Origin: Pseudomonadota bacterium
Lineage (GTDB): Bacteria; Pseudomonadota; Alphaproteobacteria; Rhizobiales; Beijerinckiaceae
Reading direction: 5' to 3'
NCBI GenBank assembly: GCA_021812505.1
Contig: JAKANG010000029.1
Coordinates: forward strand, 1 to 8,687
Length of the DNA: 8,687 nt
Shown here: one piece after another, positions 1,060-8,687 of the stretch
Layout: each line of letters starts with the position of its first letter
How positions within the stretch are numbered: the stretch's first letter is position 1
The notes under the pieces: model-generated
Seen by the model: the letters and a program-made list of their open reading frames with translations, nothing else
Databases searched by the model: none
Told to the model about the DNA's origin: nothing
Translations under genes and position numbers: made by a program

Positions 1060-1431
1060 TCAGCCGCAATATTCCGCCCAGCTCATCGGCGTCTCGAAAA
1101 TTTTCACCGATTGGAGCTGCGCCAAGTCGGGCTTGACCCGCCGGAAAATCCAGATCGCGATATTTTCGGCGGTGGGATTTTCCAGCCCTTCGATCTCGTT
1201 CAGCAGGTGATGGTCGAGACGCTCCAGCAGCGGCTGGAACACTTTTTCGACGTCGAAGAAATCGACGATGAAACCGGTATATGGATCGACCTCGCCGCCG
1301 AGCCGTAGTTCGACGCGATAGGAATGGCCATGCAGGCGCCGGCATTTATGGGTCTCCGGCACATGGGGCAGGTGGTGCGCGGCCTCGAACACAAAGGCCT
1401 GGGTGATGGTCACGGGCATGGTGGGCGTCAT
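1060..1431 (-). CDS. queD: 6-carboxytetrahydropterin synthase (QueD / PTPS family)
   Basis: Cytosolic zinc enzyme of the PTPS fold. QueD converts 7,8-dihydroneopterin triphosphate to 6-carboxytetrahydropterin, an early step to preQ0 and queuosine. Using the ATG at 1431 (123 aa, close to the 121 aa of E. coli QueD), zinc ligands are H19 in AAHHLP and H34/H36 in LHGH. The catalytic cysteine is C30 (KCRRLHGH), the catalytic Asp-His pair is D73/H74 (LDHHLLN), and the pterin-anchoring glutamate is E113. The Cys-x3-HGH form argues for QueD/PTPS-II rather than PTPS-III, which has Glu there and can replace FolB. The start is uncertain: an ATG at 1482 would add 17 unconserved residues and overlap the upstream gene by 17 bases, and an ATG at 1419 would give 119 aa; none has a good Shine-Dalgarno. 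It is the last gene of a folB-reductase-queD series. queC and queE are not in the window. Confidence 0.92.
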   Translation of the reverse strand: MTPTMPVTITQAFVFEAAHHLPHVPETHKCRRLHGHSYRVELRLGGEVDPYTGFIVDFFDVEKVFQPLLERLDHHLLNEIEGLENPTAENIAIWIFRRVKPDLAQLQSVKIFETPMSWAEYCG

Positions 1432-1465
1432 AACCCCGATTGCAGCGCAACTGAAGCTGAAAAAA

Positions 1466-2227
1466 TCACTCGAAGGCGACATCTCGGCGGCGCGGCAAGA
1501 GATTTTCGCCGCCGTCGATCGGCAGCATTTGCGCCGGCATGTCGGGGTGGTCGAGGTAGAAGCCGATCGCGGCGCAGACCTGTTCGGGCGGTGTGGCGCG
1601 CCCCGTGGGGATCTTGGCGGAATCGCTCAGAAAGCGCTCATCGGTCTGCGGGCCGGAGGGGAACATCAGGCCGGGCAGCAGGCCGAAGACGCGGACATCT
1701 GGCCGCTCGGCCCGCCGCCACATTTCGGTCAGCGCCATCAGCGCGCTCTTGCCCAGGGTGTAGGAATAATAATCCGGGTTCAGATTGAGCAGCTTGTGGT
1801 CGAGGATGTTGAAGACGCTCACCTGGGCGCCCGGTTTTTTGGCTTTGGCCGCCGCCTCGATGATCGAGAATGGCGCCAGCACATGGACCGACAGGCTGAT
1901 CGCGAGCTTTTCGGGCTCGGCCTGGCCGGGAAAATCGTGCTCGAACACCGAGGCGTTGTTGACGATCACGTCGGGCGCGCCGAAACGCGCGGTCAGCTCC
2001 CCGCAGAAATGGGCGATGGAGGTCTGGTTGGCGAAATCGGCGACGACGACATGGGTTTCGACGCCCTTGCCGGCGAGGTTCCTGGCCAGCAGCCGCGCCT
2101 TGTCGGCCGAGCGGTTGGCGTGCAGGACGATGGAGTAGTCCCGGTCGGCGAGAAAATGCGCGATCCTTTCGCCGAGCCGGCTGGCCGCGCCGGTGACCAG
2201 CGCCGTCTTCACCGGTCGGCGCTCCAT
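1466..2227 (-). CDS. SDR-family oxidoreductase, probable pteridine (dihydromonapterin/dihydrofolate) reductase
   Basis: Short-chain dehydrogenase/reductase of 253 aa with a Rossmann fold: nucleotide motif TGAASRLG (12-19), NNAS (90-93) and catalytic YTLGK (Y156, K160). Three details point to the pteridine-reductase branch (PTR1/FolM-like) rather than a generic SDR: Arg17 in the glycine motif, HANRS (36-40) resembling the NADPH 2'-phosphate site of PTR1, and Asp143 in ILDHKLL where ordinary SDRs have the catalytic Ser. Members reduce dihydropterins or dihydrofolate to the tetrahydro form with NADPH. Its position between folB and queD supports a pterin substrate. The substrate itself (dihydromonapterin, dihydrofolate, dihydrobiopterin) cannot be read from sequence. 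The ATG at 2227 overlaps folB by 19 bases. A GTG at 2212, giving a GTGA overlap with the folB stop and GGAG about 10 bases upstream, is a realistic alternative start. Confidence 0.85.
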   Translation of the reverse strand: MERRPVKTALVTGAASRLGERIAHFLADRDYSIVLHANRSADKARLLARNLAGKGVETHVVVADFANQTSIAHFCGELTARFGAPDVIVNNASVFEHDFPGQAEPEKLAISLSVHVLAPFSIIEAAAKAKKPGAQVSVFNILDHKLLNLNPDYYSYTLGKSALMALTEMWRRAERPDVRVFGLLPGLMFPSGPQTDERFLSDSAKIPTGRATPPEQVCAAIGFYLDHPDMPAQMLPIDGGENLLPRRRDVAFE

Positions 2228-2607
2228 CGTTTCCGGGTGCGGAACAGGTCGATGCCGGCGCCGCGCGTCTCGTTGTAGATGTCCGGCTTGCGGATCGACA
2301 GCCGGCAGGCGACCACCCGGGCGTCGAGGAAGCAGGACTCGACGATGCTGTCCGCCACGGTTTCCAGCAGGTCGATATGGCCTTCGTTCTCGAGGGCGCG
2401 GATGCGGTCGCGCACGACATCATAATCGATGATCGGTTCGTCGGCGGCGCGCGGGGTCGCGAGCGGCGCATAGAGCCGGACCGAGATCAGAAGGCGTGTG
2501 GGGCGCTCGGGATGGCGCTCCCACGGATGCAGGCCGCAGTTCACATTGACGCAGACGTCGTCGAGGGCCACGACAATGTGGTCTTCGCCGGAAAACAGGT
2601 CGCTCAT
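2209..2607 (-). CDS. folB: Dihydroneopterin aldolase
   Basis: Folate-pathway enzyme cleaving 7,8-dihydroneopterin to 6-hydroxymethyl-7,8-dihydropterin and glycolaldehyde, and often epimerising it to dihydromonapterin. The 132-aa protein has the tunnelling fold typical of FolB (usually about 120 aa). Visible motifs are CGLHPWER (24-31) with the pterin-site Glu30, IDYD (60-63) with Tyr62, the HIDLLETVA segment (77-85) with the substrate-anchoring Glu82, and IRKPDI (105-110) with the catalytic Lys107. A C-terminal basic tail (about 122-132) is unremarkable. The ATG start has AAGGCGGAG just upstream. It is the first gene of the pterin operon: its 3' end overlaps the reductase gene, suggesting translational coupling. 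A candidate promoter lies 30-58 bases upstream. folK and folP, frequent partners elsewhere, are not here. Confidence 0.9.
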   Translation of the reverse strand: MSDLFSGEDHIVVALDDVCVNVNCGLHPWERHPERPTRLLISVRLYAPLATPRAADEPIIDYDVVRDRIRALENEGHIDLLETVADSIVESCFLDARVVACRLSIRKPDIYNETRGAGIDLFRTRKRWSADR

Positions 2608-2736: not shown

Positions 2737-3150
2737 TTATTCCGTCGGGGCGTGCTGCGCGCCGCTGCGGTCGAACTGCGACATATAGGCGATGACATTG
2801 GCGATATCCGCCTCGCTCTTGAGGCCCTTGAACGTCATCTTGGTGTTCGGGATGTCGTGCTGCGGCTGCTTGAGATAGGAGGTGAGGGCGGCGACCGTCC
2901 AGATCTTGCCCGAGTGTACGTTGGCCTTGGAATAATCGTAGCCGGGAACCGTGCCGGCCGGACGCCCGACGACGCCGTTCAGCACCGGGCCGTAGAAATT
3001 GGTCGCGCCGGCGCCGATCCGGTGACATTGACGGCATTTGTTGAAGACGATCTCGCCCGCCTTGGGGTCGCCCTTGATCTCGGCGGCCTGCGCGCCGAAA
3101 GCCAGCGCGGCGAACAGCGCGCCGGAGAGAACCAAAATCTTGCCTCGCAT
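2737..3150 (-). CDS. Small periplasmic class I cytochrome c (cytochrome c2 type)
   Basis: Single-haem electron carrier exported to the periplasm. The 137-aa precursor begins MRGKILVLSG and has a hydrophobic signal peptide (about 4-22) with an AQA-type cleavage site near residue 22. Haem is attached at CRQCH (C39, C42, ligand H43), and the distal ligand is Met105 in TKMTFKGL. The W84, YLKQP and IAYMSQF segments fit the mitochondrial-type cytochrome c/c2 family at its usual size. The ATG at 3150 is chosen because it starts exactly at the signal peptide and has GGAG eight bases upstream; the frame stays open 29 codons further but that part is low-complexity and not signal-like. It appears monocistronic, with its own terminator and a 174-base gap on the upstream side. 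Its partner (terminal oxidase, bc1, reductase or methanol dehydrogenase chain) cannot be told from sequence. Confidence 0.93.
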   Translation of the reverse strand: MRGKILVLSGALFAALAFGAQAAEIKGDPKAGEIVFNKCRQCHRIGAGATNFYGPVLNGVVGRPAGTVPGYDYSKANVHSGKIWTVAALTSYLKQPQHDIPNTKMTFKGLKSEADIANVIAYMSQFDRSGAQHAPTE

Positions 3151-3212
3151 AATATTTGCTCCGCTTGCCGTAATAGGCGCCCGCCGCGCCGCGGTCGACG
3201 CGGGCCGCGCCG

Positions 3213-3233
3213 TTCCCGAGTTGCTATCGGGAA
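3213..3233. promoter_or_regulatory. Perfect inverted repeat upstream of cytochrome c gene
   Basis: TTCCCGA (3213-3219) and TCGGGAA (3227-3233) form a perfect 7-bp inverted repeat with a 7-base spacer, 63-83 bases upstream of the cytochrome start. It could be an operator for a dimeric regulator or a stem-loop in the transcript. No T-tract follows on either strand, so it is a poor intrinsic terminator for the kinase gene. I do not recognise a specific regulator. The rest of the 174-base gap (3151-3324) shows no gene or convincing promoter. Confidence 0.35.
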
Positions 3234-3324
3234 TCACGGGCTTTCCGCCATGATGCGCCGCAATTAAAGCACCGCTGGGCTCGGGATTCTCCCGTCATAA
3301 AGTCCTATTCAAAAAGTCGTATGG

Positions 3325-4650
3325 TCAGGTCAACAGGAAGGCGAGCAGCGAGCGCAACTCCGCCGGACGCACCGGCTTCAGCAGCATTTCGAACTTTTCG
3401 CGCCGGGCGATCTCCTCGGCGCGTGGCGAATGGTCGGCGGTCACCAGCAGCGCGGGGATCTCCTGCCCGCAGGCGTTGCGCGCCGCCCGGATCGCCTCCG
3501 GCCCCAGTTCGCCATTGTTGAGATGAAGATCGGCGATGACGATCTGCGGGGGATCGCTCAGGACGCGCAGTTTCTCCACCGCCTCCGCCCCCGAGACCGC
3601 CACGGCGACGTCGCAGCCCCAGCGCTCCAGCAGCAGCAGCATCGCCTCGCTGACTTCCGGCTCGTTCTCGATCACCAGGATTTTCGCGCCGGCGATGCGG
3701 TTTGGGTAGTGGACGAGCTGGGGCGGCGGCGCGGGCGGCGGCGGCGCCTCCTCGCTCAAGGGAATGAGGACCGAAAAGGTCGAGCCGCCCCCCACCCGCG
3801 ACGCCAGCGACACCGGATGGCCGAGCACCTGAGCGAAACGGCGCACGATGGCGAGGCCGAGGCCGAAGCCGGTCTGGCCGGGACTATCGTTATGGGCGCG
3901 CTGGAACTCCTGGAAGATCGCGTCGCGCCGGTCTTCGGGAACGCCCGGTCCAGTGTCGCAGACCTGCACCAGAACATCCTTTCCGCGCCGCCTGACGCCG
4001 ACCAGAACGCCGCCGTGCGACGTATAGCGGAGCGCATTAGCGAGCAGGTTCTGCAGGATGCGCCGCAGCATCGAAGGGTCGGAGCGCACGGTGCTGCGGG
4101 TGGCGAAGATCTTGAGCTTCAGCCCGCGCTTCTGGGCGAAATGAGCGAATTCGCGGGCGAGCGGCTCCATGACGTCGTTCAACTCGAAGCTGCGGATTTC
4201 CGGCTGCATGACGCCGGCGTCGAGCTTGGAGAGGTCGAGCAGGGTGCGAATCAGGTCCTCGAGCGTGACGAGGCAGCGGTCCACCTGTTCGATCAGCGCG
4301 CCGCCATCCGGCCCGGTCTGCATCTCGCCGAGCGCCGAGAGCGCGAGCCGGGCGGCGTTGAGCGGCTGAAGCAGGTCGTGCCCGACCGAGGCGGCGAAGG
4401 TCGACTTGAGCGAGCTCGCCGCCTCCGCCTGCATCCTCGCCTTTTCGATCGAGCGCATCGCCTGCTGCAATTCCTGGGTGCGGCGGCGGACCTGATGGTC
4501 GAGCGCGATCGCGGTCTCGAACAGGGAAAAAGCGTTGAACTGGCTGTCCACCGAGCGTTCGACCCGCGACATCAGCGCGCGGTTGATTTTCTCCAGCTTG
4601 AGAATCTGGCGCTTGAGGTCGTCGCTGCTCTCGCCCTGATGAACGGTCAT
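3325..4650 (-). CDS. Hybrid sensor histidine kinase/response regulator (NahK/ErcS'-like)
   Basis: Signalling kinase of 441 aa with no membrane segment, so probably cytoplasmic. Order: N-terminal coiled coil (about 8-80, including KINRALMSRVERS and a FSLFETAIAL stretch); dimerisation/phosphoacceptor helix with His91 in GHDLLQPLNAARL; HATPase with N-box (N201, N205), G1 box CDTGPGVP (231-238) and G2 box GFGLGLAI (261-268); a proline-rich linker (303-310); then a receiver (about 322-441) with Asp374 as phosphoacceptor, Thr404 and Lys425. The DLLQPLNAARL H-box, coiled coil and receiver match the family of Pseudomonas NahK and ErcS'. Unlike NahK as I recall it, no PAS domain is present, so sensing probably comes from its partner. 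The acidic pocket reads IENEP rather than the more usual DNEP. It overlaps the FIST gene by four bases (ATGA), so the two are surely co-transcribed. No Hpt protein or output regulator is visible here. Confidence 0.93.
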   Translation of the reverse strand: MTVHQGESSDDLKRQILKLEKINRALMSRVERSVDSQFNAFSLFETAIALDHQVRRRTQELQQAMRSIEKARMQAEAASSLKSTFAASVGHDLLQPLNAARLALSALGEMQTGPDGGALIEQVDRCLVTLEDLIRTLLDLSKLDAGVMQPEIRSFELNDVMEPLAREFAHFAQKRGLKLKIFATRSTVRSDPSMLRRILQNLLANALRYTSHGGVLVGVRRRGKDVLVQVCDTGPGVPEDRRDAIFQEFQRAHNDSPGQTGFGLGLAIVRRFAQVLGHPVSLASRVGGGSTFSVLIPLSEEAPPPPAPPPQLVHYPNRIAGAKILVIENEPEVSEAMLLLLERWGCDVAVAVSGAEAVEKLRVLSDPPQIVIADLHLNNGELGPEAIRAARNACGQEIPALLVTADHSPRAEEIARREKFEMLLKPVRPAELRSLLAFLLT

Positions 4651-5828
4651 GACGGCCGCTCTTTAGCGTCGCGGTAGCCCAGGGCGATGCCAGTGAAGGT
4701 CTGGTTCACATGCATCGAGCGATATTGCTCGCCATAGGTGTTGAAGCCGACGACCCTGTGCGCTCGGTAAAGATCGGACAGGCGATGGGCGATCTGGCTG
4801 CGCTCGGCGGCGAGCCGGCGCAGCACGCAGTCGAAGCCGATGTAAAGCGACACCGCGCCAAGCTCGGCCTCCATCCGCTCGAACGTGGCGAGCGTGCTTT
4901 CATAAGGGTCGAGCGATTTGGCCACCGTCAGCACCAGGCCCTCGTCGATCGCGCAGAAAAAGCTCAGCGAACCGTCGGCGTTCACCTTCTGGATCGAGCG
5001 CGCGTAATATTGCCCGCCGACCCCGACCAGCACAGGATGCGACGCGAAGGAGGCGGCGTCGAGGGAACTTTCGATCAGTCCCACCTGATGGGCGTATTCC
5101 TGGGCCGCCGGCTCGGCGTTGAGCTCCCGCACCACGCGCTGCTCGGTGTCGGCCTCGGTCACCACCATTTTGAGCGAGGTTGGCTCGAAATAGTCGCTCT
5201 TGAAGGTGGAAAAGGGGATGTCGGTGTGAAACAGCAGGAGAAGCGCCGCGTCGCGATGGATGGCCCCGTCGCGGATCATCCAGGTCTTTTCGAAACTCAT
5301 GCTGTCGCCGGCCGAACCGCCGATCACCGGAATGTCGTCGAAGGCTGAATAGAGCGCCGACATCACCGCTTCCTCGCGCCGGCACATGCCATCGATCAGC
5401 AGCATGCCGAAACAACGGTCGACATCGCCTTCCGGGATTTTCGCCATCAGGGTGGCGCGGGCCACGGCGGCCGCGGCGCGGCCCTCCTCGACCCCGAAAT
5501 TGGAGAGCTTCTCCAGCATATGGGCGACGAGGGTGAAGCGCTGGCGCAGGAAGCCGACCGCCACAACCGAATTGGAGGCCCAGCCGGAGAGCGTCAGCTC
5601 GCCCGCCGTGGTGCAGCCATAGATCGGCGTGTCCGGCAGGTTTTTGTGGATTTCGGCGGCGAAAGCGGCGGTGTCGTAACTGGCGCAGACGAAACAGATC
5701 AGCCCGGCCAGCGCGTCCGAATGATTTTCGCCCGCATCCGCCAGCCGCTCGCGCAGCAGGGCCGCGATGTCGCGCGCGGCTCCTTCCGCGCTCTCGGCGC
5801 TCGTGGATAGGACGACGACGCCCTCCAT
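4647..5828 (-). CDS. FIST-domain signalling protein, probable NosP-like NO sensor
   Basis: Soluble protein of 393 aa with FIST N and FIST C domains. FIST N shows GCTTAGE (71-77) and IGGSAGD (169-175); FIST C shows GFDC (331-334) and the terminal GFNTYGEQYRSMH segment (361-373). Family knowledge: Pseudomonas NosP, a FIST protein encoded next to the kinase NahK, binds haem and nitric oxide and modulates that kinase. Here a FIST gene directly precedes and overlaps a NahK-like kinase gene, which is the main reason for the NosP proposal. Haem binding is not provable from sequence; several His residues are candidates and I cannot say which, if any, is the ligand. Some FIST proteins may instead bind small molecules such as amino acids. 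Start: ATG at 5828 has GAGGG eight bases upstream and begins at the first conserved strand; an ATG at 5891 would add 21 charged residues without a clear Shine-Dalgarno. Diverges from nosR. Confidence 0.88.
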   Translation of the reverse strand: MEGVVVLSTSAESAEGAARDIAALLRERLADAGENHSDALAGLICFVCASYDTAAFAAEIHKNLPDTPIYGCTTAGELTLSGWASNSVVAVGFLRQRFTLVAHMLEKLSNFGVEEGRAAAAVARATLMAKIPEGDVDRCFGMLLIDGMCRREEAVMSALYSAFDDIPVIGGSAGDSMSFEKTWMIRDGAIHRDAALLLLFHTDIPFSTFKSDYFEPTSLKMVVTEADTEQRVVRELNAEPAAQEYAHQVGLIESSLDAASFASHPVLVGVGGQYYARSIQKVNADGSLSFFCAIDEGLVLTVAKSLDPYESTLATFERMEAELGAVSLYIGFDCVLRRLAAERSQIAHRLSDLYRAHRVVGFNTYGEQYRSMHVNQTFTGIALGYRDAKERPS

Positions 5829-5989
5829 AAGGTCGGCCCTCGTCTCGCTGGTTCGCAAATCCCGCGTCTCCCGGATTTTTCTGGCGCGCATCGTTCATTG
5901 CCCGCGCAGTCATTTCGGCCCCGCTATCGTGCGAAAGCGCACCGGCGCGGCGCAAGGCGGCGCCGGCGCCCGCGCAATAGGGACAAAGT

Positions 5990-6019
5990 ACTATAGGCGA
6001 TGTCGGTCGCGTAAAACAA
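5990..6019 (-). promoter_or_regulatory. Candidate promoter for the FIST-kinase operon
   Basis: On the minus strand, TTGTTT (6019-6014) and TATAGT (5995-5990) lie 18 bases apart, a good -35/-10 pair in an otherwise very GC-rich region. It would start transcription near 5983, giving a leader of about 155 bases to the preferred FIST start. The -10 falls in an A/T-rich island (5976-5996) holding the overlapping palindromes AGTACT and CTATAG, so the island may also be an operator shared with the divergent nosR gene. Upstream on the leader side, CCGGCGC (5942-5948) and GCGCCGG (5960-5966) can pair as a stem-loop. No -35/-10 pair of similar quality is seen for nosR. Confidence 0.4.
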
Positions 6020-6039
6020 CCTTGTCACGGGAGTGAGAA

Positions 6040-8193
6040 ATGCCGGAAACAAGGACGGGCCTTTCGGGGCTTAGCGTCGCGCTTGCGCGCCTTTCGGCGT
6101 TGCTTGCGATGCTTGTTTGCTTTTTCGCGGCGCAGGCCGTCGCCTCGACGCTCGACCGCGGGGCGATGGAAAAGCTCTTTCCCGAGCCTTTCAGGGTCGG
6201 CGAGCGCGACGCGGCCCTGCCGATCTGGCCGATTTTCCGCCAAAGCTACAATGGCGACGTTCTCGCGGCCTATGCCTTCGAATCCATCGATTTCGAGCCG
6301 ATTCCCGGCTTTTCCGGCACGCCGCTCGACCTGCTGATCGCGATCAAACCCTCGGGCGAGCTGCTCGACGTGCGGGTCCTCAGCCAGCACGAGCCGGTTT
6401 TCGTCGATGGACTCGGCCCCGACCCGCTGATGAATTTCGTCAAGCAATATGCCGGCAAATCGATCAAGCAGTCGATCAAGATCGTCGCGCCGGGCACGCG
6501 CGACCCGCGCTCGGACAGCGTCGCCGCCGAAATCGACGGCGTCGCCAAGGCGACGGCCTCGGTGCGGATCATCAACGAAACGGTCATCGAATCCGCGCTC
6601 CAGGTGGCGCGGGCGCGGCTCGGCTTTTCCAGGGGACGCGATCCCAACCGCGTCGCACACGCCAAGGAGGATGTGTTTGAGCCGCTGACGTTCGAGCAGA
6701 TGCTCGATCGTGGTTATATCCGCCACCTGCGTCTCACCAACGCCGAAGTCGAAGTGGCTTTCAAGGGCTCTGACGGCGAAGGACTGGACCCGCAAGCGCG
6801 CGCCGACCCCAAGGGACTCTTCGCCGATGTCTATATCGCCGAGGTCGATGTCCCGATTGTCGGGCGCAATCTGCTCGGCGACAAGAACTGGCGCAAGCTG
6901 ATGGACCAGCTCGACGGCGCCCCCGCCATGCTGGTGGTGTCCACCGGGCGCTGGACCTTCATGCCGGAGTCGTTCGTTCCCGGCGCGACGCCCGATTTCA
7001 TCGCCCTGTCGCAGGCCGACGCGCCAGTGGCGTGGCGCGATTTCGTCTGGCGAGACCGCCTCGACCTGCCGGTCCCCAAGGACTTCGATCTCGCCCAGGC
7101 GGATGAGGCCATCATGCGCATCGCGCCGCAGGCTGCCTTCGATCCCGCCTCGCCTTCGATCTTCTCGATCCGGGTGCTGCGCGAAAAGGGTCAGATCTAT
7201 CCTGAGCGGATCACCCGCGATTTCACCCTCGCCTACAGCCTGCCCAAAAATTTGTTCATCCTGCCGCCCGACGATTCCGGCCTCGGGATCGGGTCGATCT
7301 GGAAAAGCCGCGTCCGCGACATTTCGATCCTGGCCGCAGGCCTGATCGTGCTGGCCGTCGCCCTGGCGCGGCAACAGGCGCTGGTGCGCTCGCCGCGCGG
7401 GTTTCAGATTTTTCGGCTCGCCTATCTCGCCTTCACTCTGGTGTTCATCGGCTGGATCGCCCAGGCGCAGCTGTCCATCGTCTGGCTGTTCGGCCTGATC
7501 AAGGCGATCAAGGGCGAGGGCAGTTTCGTCTTCTTCCTGTGGGACCCGCCGACCCTGATGGTGACGCTCTTCGCCCTGGCCGCTCTCTTCATCTGGGGGC
7601 GCGGAACTTTTTGCGGCTGGCTCTGCCCCTTCGGCGCCCTGCAGGAATTCGCCGGCGAGATCGCGCGCCTGTTGCGCCTGCGCCAGATTGGCCTGCCGCA
7701 ACGCTACGAGCACCTGTCGCGGATTCCGAAATTCCTGGTGCTGGCGGTCATTCTGATCACTGCGGTCTTCTTCAGCAATCAGGCGGAGAAAGTCGCGGAG
7801 GTCGAGCCGTTCAAGACATCGATCACGCTGATCTTCATGCGGTCCGCGCCCTTCGTGCTCTACGCGGTCGCGCTGCTGATCGTCGGCATGTTCCATTACA
7901 AATTCTTCTGCCGCTATCTCTGCCCGCTCGGCGCCTCGCTGGCGGCTTTGAGCTTCGTGCGGTGGTGGAAATGGATTCCCCGCCGCAGGGAGTGCGGCGC
8001 GCCCTGCCAGATGTGCCGGGTGAAATGCCGTTACGGCGCGATCGAGCGCAGCGGCGAAATCGTCTATTCCGAATGTTTCCAATGCATGGATTGCGTGGTG
8101 ATCCACGATTCCCCGCAGAAATGCGTGCCTCTGGTGCTTGAGCAAAAAAGGGCGCGCCGGCGCGAACGCCAGAAACTGGAGGCGGCGCAATGA
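6040..8193 (+). CDS. nosR: NosR/NirI-family membrane flavo-iron-sulfur protein
   Basis: Integral membrane redox protein of 717 aa, close to the size of Pseudomonas stutzeri NosR (about 720). Known members pass electrons to or support maturation of nitrous-oxide reductase (NosR) or affect nitrite reductase expression (NirI). Order: signal/membrane segment (about 14-36); periplasmic FMN-binding domain with a flavinylation-type motif DGVAKAT (166-172, predicted FMN-threonine T172); membrane helices from about 427, 457, 505, 564 and 603; cytoplasmic-side C-x3-CP motifs at C525/C529 (CGWLCP) and C624/C628 (CRYLCP); then two [4Fe-4S] ferredoxin clusters (C652, C656, C659, C663; C679, C682, C685, C695). 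All key cysteines are present. Start: GGGAG six bases upstream of the ATG. It overlaps the following apbE by ATGA. The NosR versus NirI choice is open because neither nosZ nor nirS is visible; the symbol is given on length and domain plan. Confidence 0.85.
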   Translation: MPETRTGLSGLSVALARLSALLAMLVCFFAAQAVASTLDRGAMEKLFPEPFRVGERDAALPIWPIFRQSYNGDVLAAYAFESIDFEPIPGFSGTPLDLLIAIKPSGELLDVRVLSQHEPVFVDGLGPDPLMNFVKQYAGKSIKQSIKIVAPGTRDPRSDSVAAEIDGVAKATASVRIINETVIESALQVARARLGFSRGRDPNRVAHAKEDVFEPLTFEQMLDRGYIRHLRLTNAEVEVAFKGSDGEGLDPQARADPKGLFADVYIAEVDVPIVGRNLLGDKNWRKLMDQLDGAPAMLVVSTGRWTFMPESFVPGATPDFIALSQADAPVAWRDFVWRDRLDLPVPKDFDLAQADEAIMRIAPQAAFDPASPSIFSIRVLREKGQIYPERITRDFTLAYSLPKNLFILPPDDSGLGIGSIWKSRVRDISILAAGLIVLAVALARQQALVRSPRGFQIFRLAYLAFTLVFIGWIAQAQLSIVWLFGLIKAIKGEGSFVFFLWDPPTLMVTLFALAALFIWGRGTFCGWLCPFGALQEFAGEIARLLRLRQIGLPQRYEHLSRIPKFLVLAVILITAVFFSNQAEKVAEVEPFKTSITLIFMRSAPFVLYAVALLIVGMFHYKFFCRYLCPLGASLAALSFVRWWKWIPRRRECGAPCQMCRVKCRYGAIERSGEIVYSECFQCMDCVVIHDSPQKCVPLVLEQKRARRRERQKLEAAQ

Positions 8194-8687
8194 CAAGCAA
8201 CCGCAGGCAGATGTTGCGGCTCGCCCTGGTCGGGGCGGGGCTTGGGGCCTCGGGCGTCTGGGCGGCGAGTCAGAGGCGCGGCGAAAAGCTGTTCCGCCGT
8301 CCGGGCCTTGCCTTCGACACCGGCGTCGCCTTGACCGTCGCGGGCCTGGACAAGAGCGAAGCCGAGGCGGCGCTCGACGCCGGTTTCGCCGAAATCCGCC
8401 GGCTAGAGCGCATCGTCGGCCTGTCCACGTCGGGCAGCGATATTCGCCGCCTCAATGCGGAAGGGTTTTTGGCAAAGCCCGACCCGGCGATGCTGGAGAT
8501 GCTTGCGGTGGCCGAAGACGTCCATCGCGCCAGCGGCGGCGCCTTCGACGTCACCGTGCAGCCCTTGTGGATTTTTTACGATTCCTTCGCCAACCGAGGC
8601 GCCTGGCCGACAAACGAAGAAGCCGCGCCCGCCCGCGCCCTGATCGGCCAGAATTTCCTGCGCTTCGACGAAGACGCCGTTGCTTTC
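8190..8687 (+). CDS. FAD:protein FMN transferase (ApbE/NosX type), partial
   Basis: First 166 residues of an ApbE-family flavin transferase, cut by the window end. ApbE enzymes attach FMN from FAD to a threonine of periplasmic targets; NosX and NirX are the versions tied to NosR and NirI. The N-terminus carries a twin-arginine-like signal, NRRQMLRLALVGAG, with a hydrophobic stretch to about residue 26, which suggests Tat export as for NosX. Family motifs seen are SDIRRLN (83-89) and GGAFDVTVQPLW (116-127). The magnesium and FAD-binding C-terminal part lies beyond the window. The ATG overlaps the nosR stop (ATGA) and has GGAGG (8178-8182) seven bases upstream, so translation is coupled. The obvious client is the FMN domain of the upstream NosR-type protein. 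Whether to name it nosX depends on genes further right. Confidence 0.9.
   Translation, partial: MTSNRRQMLRLALVGAGLGASGVWAASQRRGEKLFRRPGLAFDTGVALTVAGLDKSEAEAALDAGFAEIRRLERIVGLSTSGSDIRRLNAEGFLAKPDPAMLEMLAVAEDVHRASGGAFDVTVQPLWIFYDSFANRGAWPTNEEAAPARALIGQNFLRFDEDAVAF

Follow-up and report, generated by a model that had tools for sequence, protein, structure and literature searches.

A FIST-kinase locus divergent from a NosR-like-ApbE pair in Rhodoblastus is probably part of a PQQ-dependent alcohol oxidation system

NapH-like flavinylated gene clusters have been reported with ExaA in 172 genomes and with NirS in 133 (Meheust et al., 2021; PMC8238504), and an electron flow from the alcohol oxidase has been proposed for the NapH-like/exaA system (PMC8238504). 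In Pseudomonas, homologues of the NosP-NahK pair (PP_2663-PedS1) lie inside the ped cluster for pyrroloquinoline quinone (PQQ)-dependent alcohol dehydrogenase (PQQ-ADH), and AgmR (AgmR/ErbR) drives the ped genes and pqqFABCDE (PMC12997753); ErdR has a role in ethanol and acetate use (PMC9927353, PMC8402216). The NosR-like/ExaA link and the presence of NosP-NahK in the ped cluster are already in print, and their union was not found there: no literature joining FIST and PQQ-ADH was found beyond the ped review (PMC12997753), the available text of PMC11334425 holds nothing on a link between NosR-like proteins and alcohol oxidation, and a search for NosP, nosR and FIST together returned only PMC12570481, whose 'NosR' is an HD-GYP response regulator unrelated to the NosR discussed here. 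Here we describe a locus in an 8,687-nucleotide stretch of DNA, analyzed as a whole and called the window below (G000:C8:119214-127900), from a genome whose genus we take to be Rhodoblastus. In this locus a FIST gene and a histidine kinase gene diverge from the gene for a NosR-like membrane protein and an apbE gene. Judging from comparative sequence analysis, the locus most likely forms one half, that for regulation and electron transfer, of a system for PQQ-dependent alcohol oxidation, a reading that departs from a first-pass annotation in which a nitric oxide (NO)-responsive two-component system was thought to control an operon supporting a denitrification reductase. The features of the locus, in window numbering, are as follows.

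3325..4650, minus strand: soluble hybrid histidine kinase (HK-REC), NahK/ErcS'-related, with HisKA, HATPase_c and Response_reg domains, His91, an N-box from 201 and receiver Asp374
4647..5891, minus strand: NosP-like FIST protein with FIST and FIST_C domains
5985..6003, plus strand: invariant 19-nt block AAAGTACTATAGGCGATGT of the divergent promoter region, identical in the 9/9 genomes compared
6040..8193, plus strand: NosR-like membrane iron-sulfur protein (Fer4_5) with an N-terminal RnfG/NqrC-like flavin mononucleotide (FMN) domain, of a PQQ-ADH-associated clade
6535..6555, plus strand: non-canonical flavinylation motif D-G-V-A-K-A-T, residues 166-172, with Lys replacing Gly
7612..8124, plus strand: twelve conserved Cys, residues 525-695, in two CxxxCP motifs and two ferredoxin-type groups
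8190..8687, plus strand, cut by the window end: ApbE flavin transferase with ApbE domain, the full gene ending at 9188

All four genes are open frames with the expected domains. The FIST and kinase genes overlap by ATGA at 4647-4650 (TCAT on the plus strand), the NosR-like and apbE genes by ATGA at 8190-8193, and the two pairs diverge from each other, so that the arrangement described in the first-pass annotation is present in every part. Its comparison with NosP-NahK holds at the level of family resemblance: the adjoining kinase scores 403 bits against NF041832 ('near_NosP_CTERM'), above the cut-off of 400, but the FIST protein, in which both the FIST_N and FIST_C Pfam domains are present, reaches 412.5 bits on the NosP model NF041558, below the cut-off of 450. 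As in NosP-NahK/NosK of P. aeruginosa and Burkholderia, a FIST protein is encoded with a soluble kinase and family models match; unlike those systems, the window holds no cyclic di-GMP regulator in a domain scan. NahK carries PAS domains, and none was found in the window kinase at E <= 0.001 in the domain scan. A literature search of narrow reach turned up no haem ligand of NosP, and no solved structure matched the NosR-like or the FIST protein by sequence. The NosR-like protein scores 528 bits on NF046105 against a cut-off of 1000; because the canonical NosR of one Rhodoblastus genome (809) also falls below it, as does the NirI of the window genome (605), the model is of no use here as a test for a true NosR. 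The locus has the make-up of a NapH-like flavinylated system, with a Fer4_5 (PF12801) membrane protein that carries an FMN domain and with ApbE.

The NosR-like protein was compared with its family in a set of 91 genes with their surroundings, in which each marker was located by tblastn from one to four reference proteins, a procedure by which distant forms can be missed. The neighborhoods came from 15 Rhodoblastus regions (four on contig C54 of the window genome), 13 places (two of them Rhodoblastus) and two further sets of 20 and 39; weaker matches and most two-part matches stand outside the set, and L123 (a duplicate of L004) and NosR hits below 250 bits were dropped before the tree was built. 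Gene calls were crude (longest frames by codon GC), and the tree was a quick search under LG+G4 with Shimodaira-Hasegawa-like approximate likelihood ratio test (SH-aLRT) support only. The results showed that one branch, with an SH-aLRT value of 100, splits the 91 proteins into 37 that include the window protein and 54 others. Within 8 kb of the 37 genes, PQQ-ADH was found in 16 cases, PQQ-ADH accessory genes in 5, a FIST gene only in 7 (all Rhodoblastus), none of these in 9, and NosZ or NirS in no case; among the 54 others the neighbor was NosZ in 41, NirS in 10 and PQQ-ADH in one (L154), with none in 2. The window protein served as the query that gathered this sample, so that these shares do not stand for those of a population; what matters is the split itself. 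Models back the assignment of the accessory genes: the substrate-binding proteins of L145 and L235 score 448 and 436 on TIGR03863 ('PQQ-dependent alcohol dehydrogenase system', cut-off 413.6), and the three PQQ-ADHs scanned pass the cut-off of TIGR03075. In addition, 12 of the 37 clade members, but none of the 54 others, have a FIST gene no more than 10 kb away. As gauged by these neighborhoods, the NosR-like clade travels with quinoprotein alcohol dehydrogenases, without NosZ or NirS.

L154 (8708-14559), kept in the counts, carries a NosR-family gene of the NosZ/NirS clade on a long branch, beside a PQQ-ADH of another type, and may be an independent recruitment to alcohol oxidation. At L115 (14981-19499), next to a DUF3047 gene and about 9 kb from a nos cluster, is another NosR-like type (44 percent, likewise KAT) that has an ApbE of its own; this gene, L115_15008, was scored as 'none', its distance from NosZ being 9.4 kb. 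L255-L260 are six NosR-like genes of the window clade from other proteobacteria, five with KAT and one with SAT, near which PQQ-system genes and ApbE were not found.

In the window genome, tblastn with the marker proteins found no NosZ, NirS, PQQ-ADH or LuxR-type regulator in 62 kb (C8:90000-152142, to the contig end), and the window protein stands on the opposite side of the branch from the NosZ-linked NosR. Both nirS (Cytochrom_D1) and nosZ (nos_propeller), which the first-pass annotation proposed to seek beyond the window, do occur in the genome, but on C54: nirS lies beside another NosR-family gene and another apbE, as NirI-NirX, so that the NirI-type gene of this genome is a separate gene, and nosZ has no full-length NosR-family gene near it and a weak NapH-like match about 5 kb away. 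The proposed link to denitrification is not supported, given the absence of NosZ and NirS from the 62 kb and from the surroundings of all 37 clade members, the position of the protein in the tree, and a nirS that has its own NirI and ApbE. The C54 NirS with NirI and ApbE (L109 14643-18615) and the C54 NosZ (L111 17466-19865), which is clade-II-like by eye and scores 270 bits on the TAT-type model, below cut-off, are the strain's likely denitrification genes.

We next consider how the locus relates to PQQ-ADH genes across Rhodoblastus. The FIST-kinase pair diverges from the NosR-like gene in 9 of 11 genomes, the contigs of the other two breaking between or inside the genes, and the arrangement is in this sense conserved among relatives; ApbE lies 3' of the NosR-like gene in 6 of the 10 genomes in which that side is visible. 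PQQ-ADH and regulator genes are side by side in all 11, the regulator match of G004 containing one in-frame TAG. In L152 and L002 (NosR-like 82 and 81 percent) the locus is contiguous with the PQQ-ADH cluster, in the order kinase-FIST divergent from NosR-like-ApbE, PqqC, ATP-binding cassette (ABC) transporter, regulator, PQQ-ADH and periplasmic binding protein, and in G004 the two halves lie about 21.5 kb apart on one contig. Outside the genus, L143 (another genus, NosR-like 54 percent) holds PqqB, ApbE, NosR-like, FIST, kinase, regulator, PQQ-ADH, cytochrome c and a pqqA-like peptide within 18 kb, and L235 and L270, from other families, likewise bring together a FIST-kinase pair, a NosR-like gene and genes of the PQQ system. 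Three Rhodoblastus genomes (L113 7951-13984, L114, L116) carry a second NosR-like gene (about 63-67 percent) with another PQQ-ADH, a pentapeptide protein and DUF1194; the L116 copy looks broken, and the second PQQ-ADH of L113 reads WDFSG, without the lanthanide-type Asp.

The PQQ half of the window genome is on contig C10, where the gene set comprises pqqA-like, PqqB, PqqE, cytochrome c, binding protein, PQQ-ADH, regulator, ABC transporter and PqqC. The PQQ-ADH has a WDFDGVN stretch, the Asp of which presumably marks lanthanide enzymes, and a CC pair. The LuxR-type regulator that the first-pass annotation proposed to seek beyond the window exists, but on this other contig, adjoining the PQQ-ADH. 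In an NCBIfam scan of this regulator and that of L143, both scored best on ErdR and below its cut-off, the former with 186 against 390. No PQQ-ADH is found within five genes of the window locus, as it would be in a NapH-like/ExaA cluster; since one lies close by in L152, L002 and L143 and in members of the sister clade, the window locus may nevertheless work as such a system. It resembles the NapH-like/exaA system in its NosR-type membrane iron-sulfur protein with FMN domain, its ApbE and its association with quinoprotein alcohol dehydrogenase (PMC8238504), and differs from it in the coupling to a FIST-kinase pair, the Lys in the flavin motif and the PQQ-ADH on another contig.

The FIST-kinase pair shows a related association of its own. 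Among 72 FIST-kinase loci outside Rhodoblastus (L009-L080), a LuxR regulator like that of C10 was present in 68 and PQQ-ADH in 60 in the DNA examined, and NosR-like, NosZ and NirS in none; the four loci without the regulator include contigs of 3.3 and 4.4 kb. In a phylum-wide sample NosP was found at E <= 1e-40 in 79 of 398 genomes, and 28 of 85 such places were examined (the 20 best and 8 others; L336 is the Bradyrhizobium contig L038, and L332 overlaps L270), of which 25 had the regulator, 15 PQQ-system genes and none NosZ or NirS. These neighborhoods indicate that the usual companions of the FIST-kinase pair are PQQ-ADH and a LuxR response regulator of ErdR-like type. The first-pass statement that NosP-NahK is known for biofilm control and not for sitting at nos genes misses the homologues in the ped cluster. 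That cluster and the present system both combine a FIST protein and a hybrid kinase with a LuxR-type regulator among PQQ-ADH genes (PMC12997753). Unlike the ped/exa system, the window kinase is short and has no PAS match, the regulator scores best on ErdR though below cut-off, and the words NosR and ApbE are absent from PMC12997753.

The NosR-like protein shares with NosR (nos) and NirI (nir) the twelve Cys, kept in 37/37 window-clade and 54/54 other rows, an N-terminal flavin domain and an ApbE partner. Unlike them it belongs to a separate clade, is without NosZ or NirS and has KAT for GAT. The flavin-bearing Thr is kept in 37/37 window-clade rows, and the others have 52 Thr and 2 Ser of 54. 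At the Gly position of [S/T]GA[S/T] the window clade has Lys in 32 rows, Met in 4 and Ser in 1, and the other clade keeps Gly in 53 of its 54 rows. In 22 of the 37 rows the NosR-like match has an apbE match no more than 175 bp away, and in the other 15 none is near; these adjacent apbE genes (excluding L115_9221, labelled K, which is the apbE of the nos cluster) form lineages of their own, 12 rows with support of 100, 9 with 93 and one alone. In nos clusters, unlike here, apbE is at least 5.4 kb away in 19 of 22 rows; NirI-type apbE genes are adjacent too (7/7, at 14-194 bp), and apbE adjacency as such is nothing special to the window clade. The altered motif is probably still flavinylated, by a matching ApbE.

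In the divergent promoter region, AAAGTACTATAGGCGATGT is invariant in 9/9 Rhodoblastus intergenic regions, that of the window included, and mean column identity elsewhere is poor (46 percent). Across 248 genomes of the family, its 14-mer core, AAGTACTATAGGCG (5986-5999), has 11 occurrences: 10 of the 11 Rhodoblastus genomes have one each, always ahead of the FIST or NosR-like gene in this locus, and G207, of another genus, has one about 80 bp before the start of a pqqA-like gene. A reversed-pattern control gave 7 hits in the same search. G207 also carries a near copy of the block between its NosR-like and FIST genes. As the 14-mer is common to this locus and the pqqA-like gene of G207, it suggests that one regulator serves both PQQ synthesis and the NosR-like/FIST genes. 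The window genome has one exact copy of the block, at this locus, and one copy, of the promoter 13-mer, with one mismatch on C68 (L296, about 1500), before a protein with a LuxR-type helix-turn-helix; the reversed control gave 3.

A mechanism can be proposed from these associations. ApbE would attach FMN to the NosR-like protein, in its periplasmic domain. Electrons freed by the periplasmic PQQ-ADH would enter the NosR-like protein, perhaps via the cytochrome c of the cluster, and move along its membrane iron-sulfur clusters, ending in the quinone pool or on the cytoplasmic side. The FIST protein may bind a small signal, which could be NO, held by haem in the manner of NosP, or a cue from redox state or alcohol oxidation, and would so set the activity of the kinase, which would phosphorylate the ErdR-like regulator encoded on C10 beside the PQQ-ADH, directly or via its receiver domain and an Hpt protein. 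This regulator is the best candidate to act at the 5985-6003 block, with the result that FIST-kinase, NosR-like-ApbE and PQQ genes would be switched together. A fuller proposal goes further: a NosR-type sub-family dedicated to PQQ-alcohol oxidation would have a new covalent-flavin motif DG[VI]xKAT (Lys or Met for Gly, against the motif of PMC12052999) recognized by co-encoded ApbE lineages of its own, and a shared promoter element would put this sub-family and the pqq genes under joint control of a FIST-kinase pair of NosP type and an ErdR-like regulator. We put this whole forward tentatively, as possible rather than probable.

Several observations weigh against a role in alcohol oxidation or against parts of this proposal. 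The two halves are on different contigs (C8, C10) in the window genome and contiguous in just 2 of 11 Rhodoblastus genomes. The 72 loci outside the genus are mostly Bradyrhizobium and are not independent. Neither a FIST nor a PQQ neighbor lies within 8 kb of nine genes in the clade of 37, which include L256 and the five-member sub-group L255 and L257-L260, and such members may do something else. The window DGVAKAT departs from the published flavinylation motif Dxx[S/T]GA[S/T] (PMC12052999), with Lys where the motif has Gly, Ala where it has [S/T], and the Thr unchanged, and a Gly to Ala change in the motif cuts flavinylation to about half (PMC12052999). No ApbE adjoining the NosR-like gene was found in four genomes (L005-L008), and because of this and of the Lys in place of the motif Gly flavinylation is not certain. 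The link from regulator to promoter rests on a 14-mer shared with one other genus; the block may partly be a core promoter, as its TATAGG resembles a -10 element; it was not found before the pqqA or PQQ-ADH of the window genome; and, written as AGTNCTATAG, it gave 0 hits in 1.27 Mb of the 72 FIST loci outside the genus. The block was also tried as the published ErdR/CrbR ACTU motif, from which it differs as given in the available text of PMC5715377.

The rival readings account for some of the same evidence. Control of a denitrification-supporting NosR/NirI-ApbE operon by an NO-responsive two-component system draws on the homology of NosR/NirI and ApbE and on the presence of nirS, nosZ and a respiratory nitrate reductase alpha-like protein in the genome, and NahK is reported to affect denitrification genes of P. 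aeruginosa, through RsmA (PMC11784011), which also counts against an alcohol-oxidation role. We consider it highly improbable, as neither NosZ nor NirS lies within 8 kb of any clade member, nirS has its own partners on C54, and no FIST gene is near any NosR-family gene of the NosZ/NirS clade. A more plausible, though still unlikely, alternative is that the FIST protein is a true haem/NO sensor and that NO, for instance from denitrification elsewhere in the genome, tunes electron entry from PQQ-ADH up or down; this is a version of the alcohol-oxidation reading and compatible with it. The NosP-like score of the FIST protein points that way, as do the presence of nirS and a relative in the PQQ-type cluster of L235 that passes the NosP cut-off with 492.6 bits, whereas the alcohol-oxidation context alone gives no reason for NO.

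Finally, the divergence could be an inherited neighborhood and nothing else, the NosR-like protein serving PQQ-ADH while the FIST-kinase pair acts via Hpt on motility or biofilm as in Pseudomonas, without effect on the adjoining operon. NahK does work through HptB and RsmA (PMC12997753, PMC11784011), and outside the genus the FIST-kinase pair is mostly without a NosR-like gene (0/72). Against it, co-location of FIST-kinase and NosR-like genes recurs outside Rhodoblastus in L143, L235 and L270, and the regulator stays beside the FIST-kinase genes in 68 of 72 loci. We regard this reading as improbable.

The remaining genes of the window, which precede the kinase, are HSP33, QueD/PTPS, SDR (short-chain dehydrogenase), FolB and cytochrome c. 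The PTPS/QueD, short-chain dehydrogenase and FolB-like genes (1060-2607, minus strand) overlap one another and look like a pterin operon; at least two of the three types have relatives near the FIST-kinase genes in L001-L008. The cytochrome c (2737-3237, minus strand, downstream of the kinase) is CycA-like (124 bits, cut-off 240) and has a relative in the same region of L001-L008, sometimes a few kb off; it could be an electron partner of the system. A PhoB-like regulator about 5 kb upstream of the window, recognized by eye, is not taken as a partner.

Together, these data suggest that the names 'NosR' and 'NosP' mislead here: public sources label several close relatives of the window NosR-like protein as regulators of nitrous or nitric oxide reductase, although the clade goes with alcohol oxidation genes. 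Because an entire clade, often with its own adjoining apbE, has a motif other than the published one, nature provides a way to test the target requirements of ApbE, and the promoter block is a candidate element for joint control of PQQ synthesis and an electron carrier. NosP-NahK, studied for biofilm and virulence, gains a testable metabolic context, and, if the proposal is true, would over much of its range regulate quinoprotein alcohol oxidation rather than biofilms.

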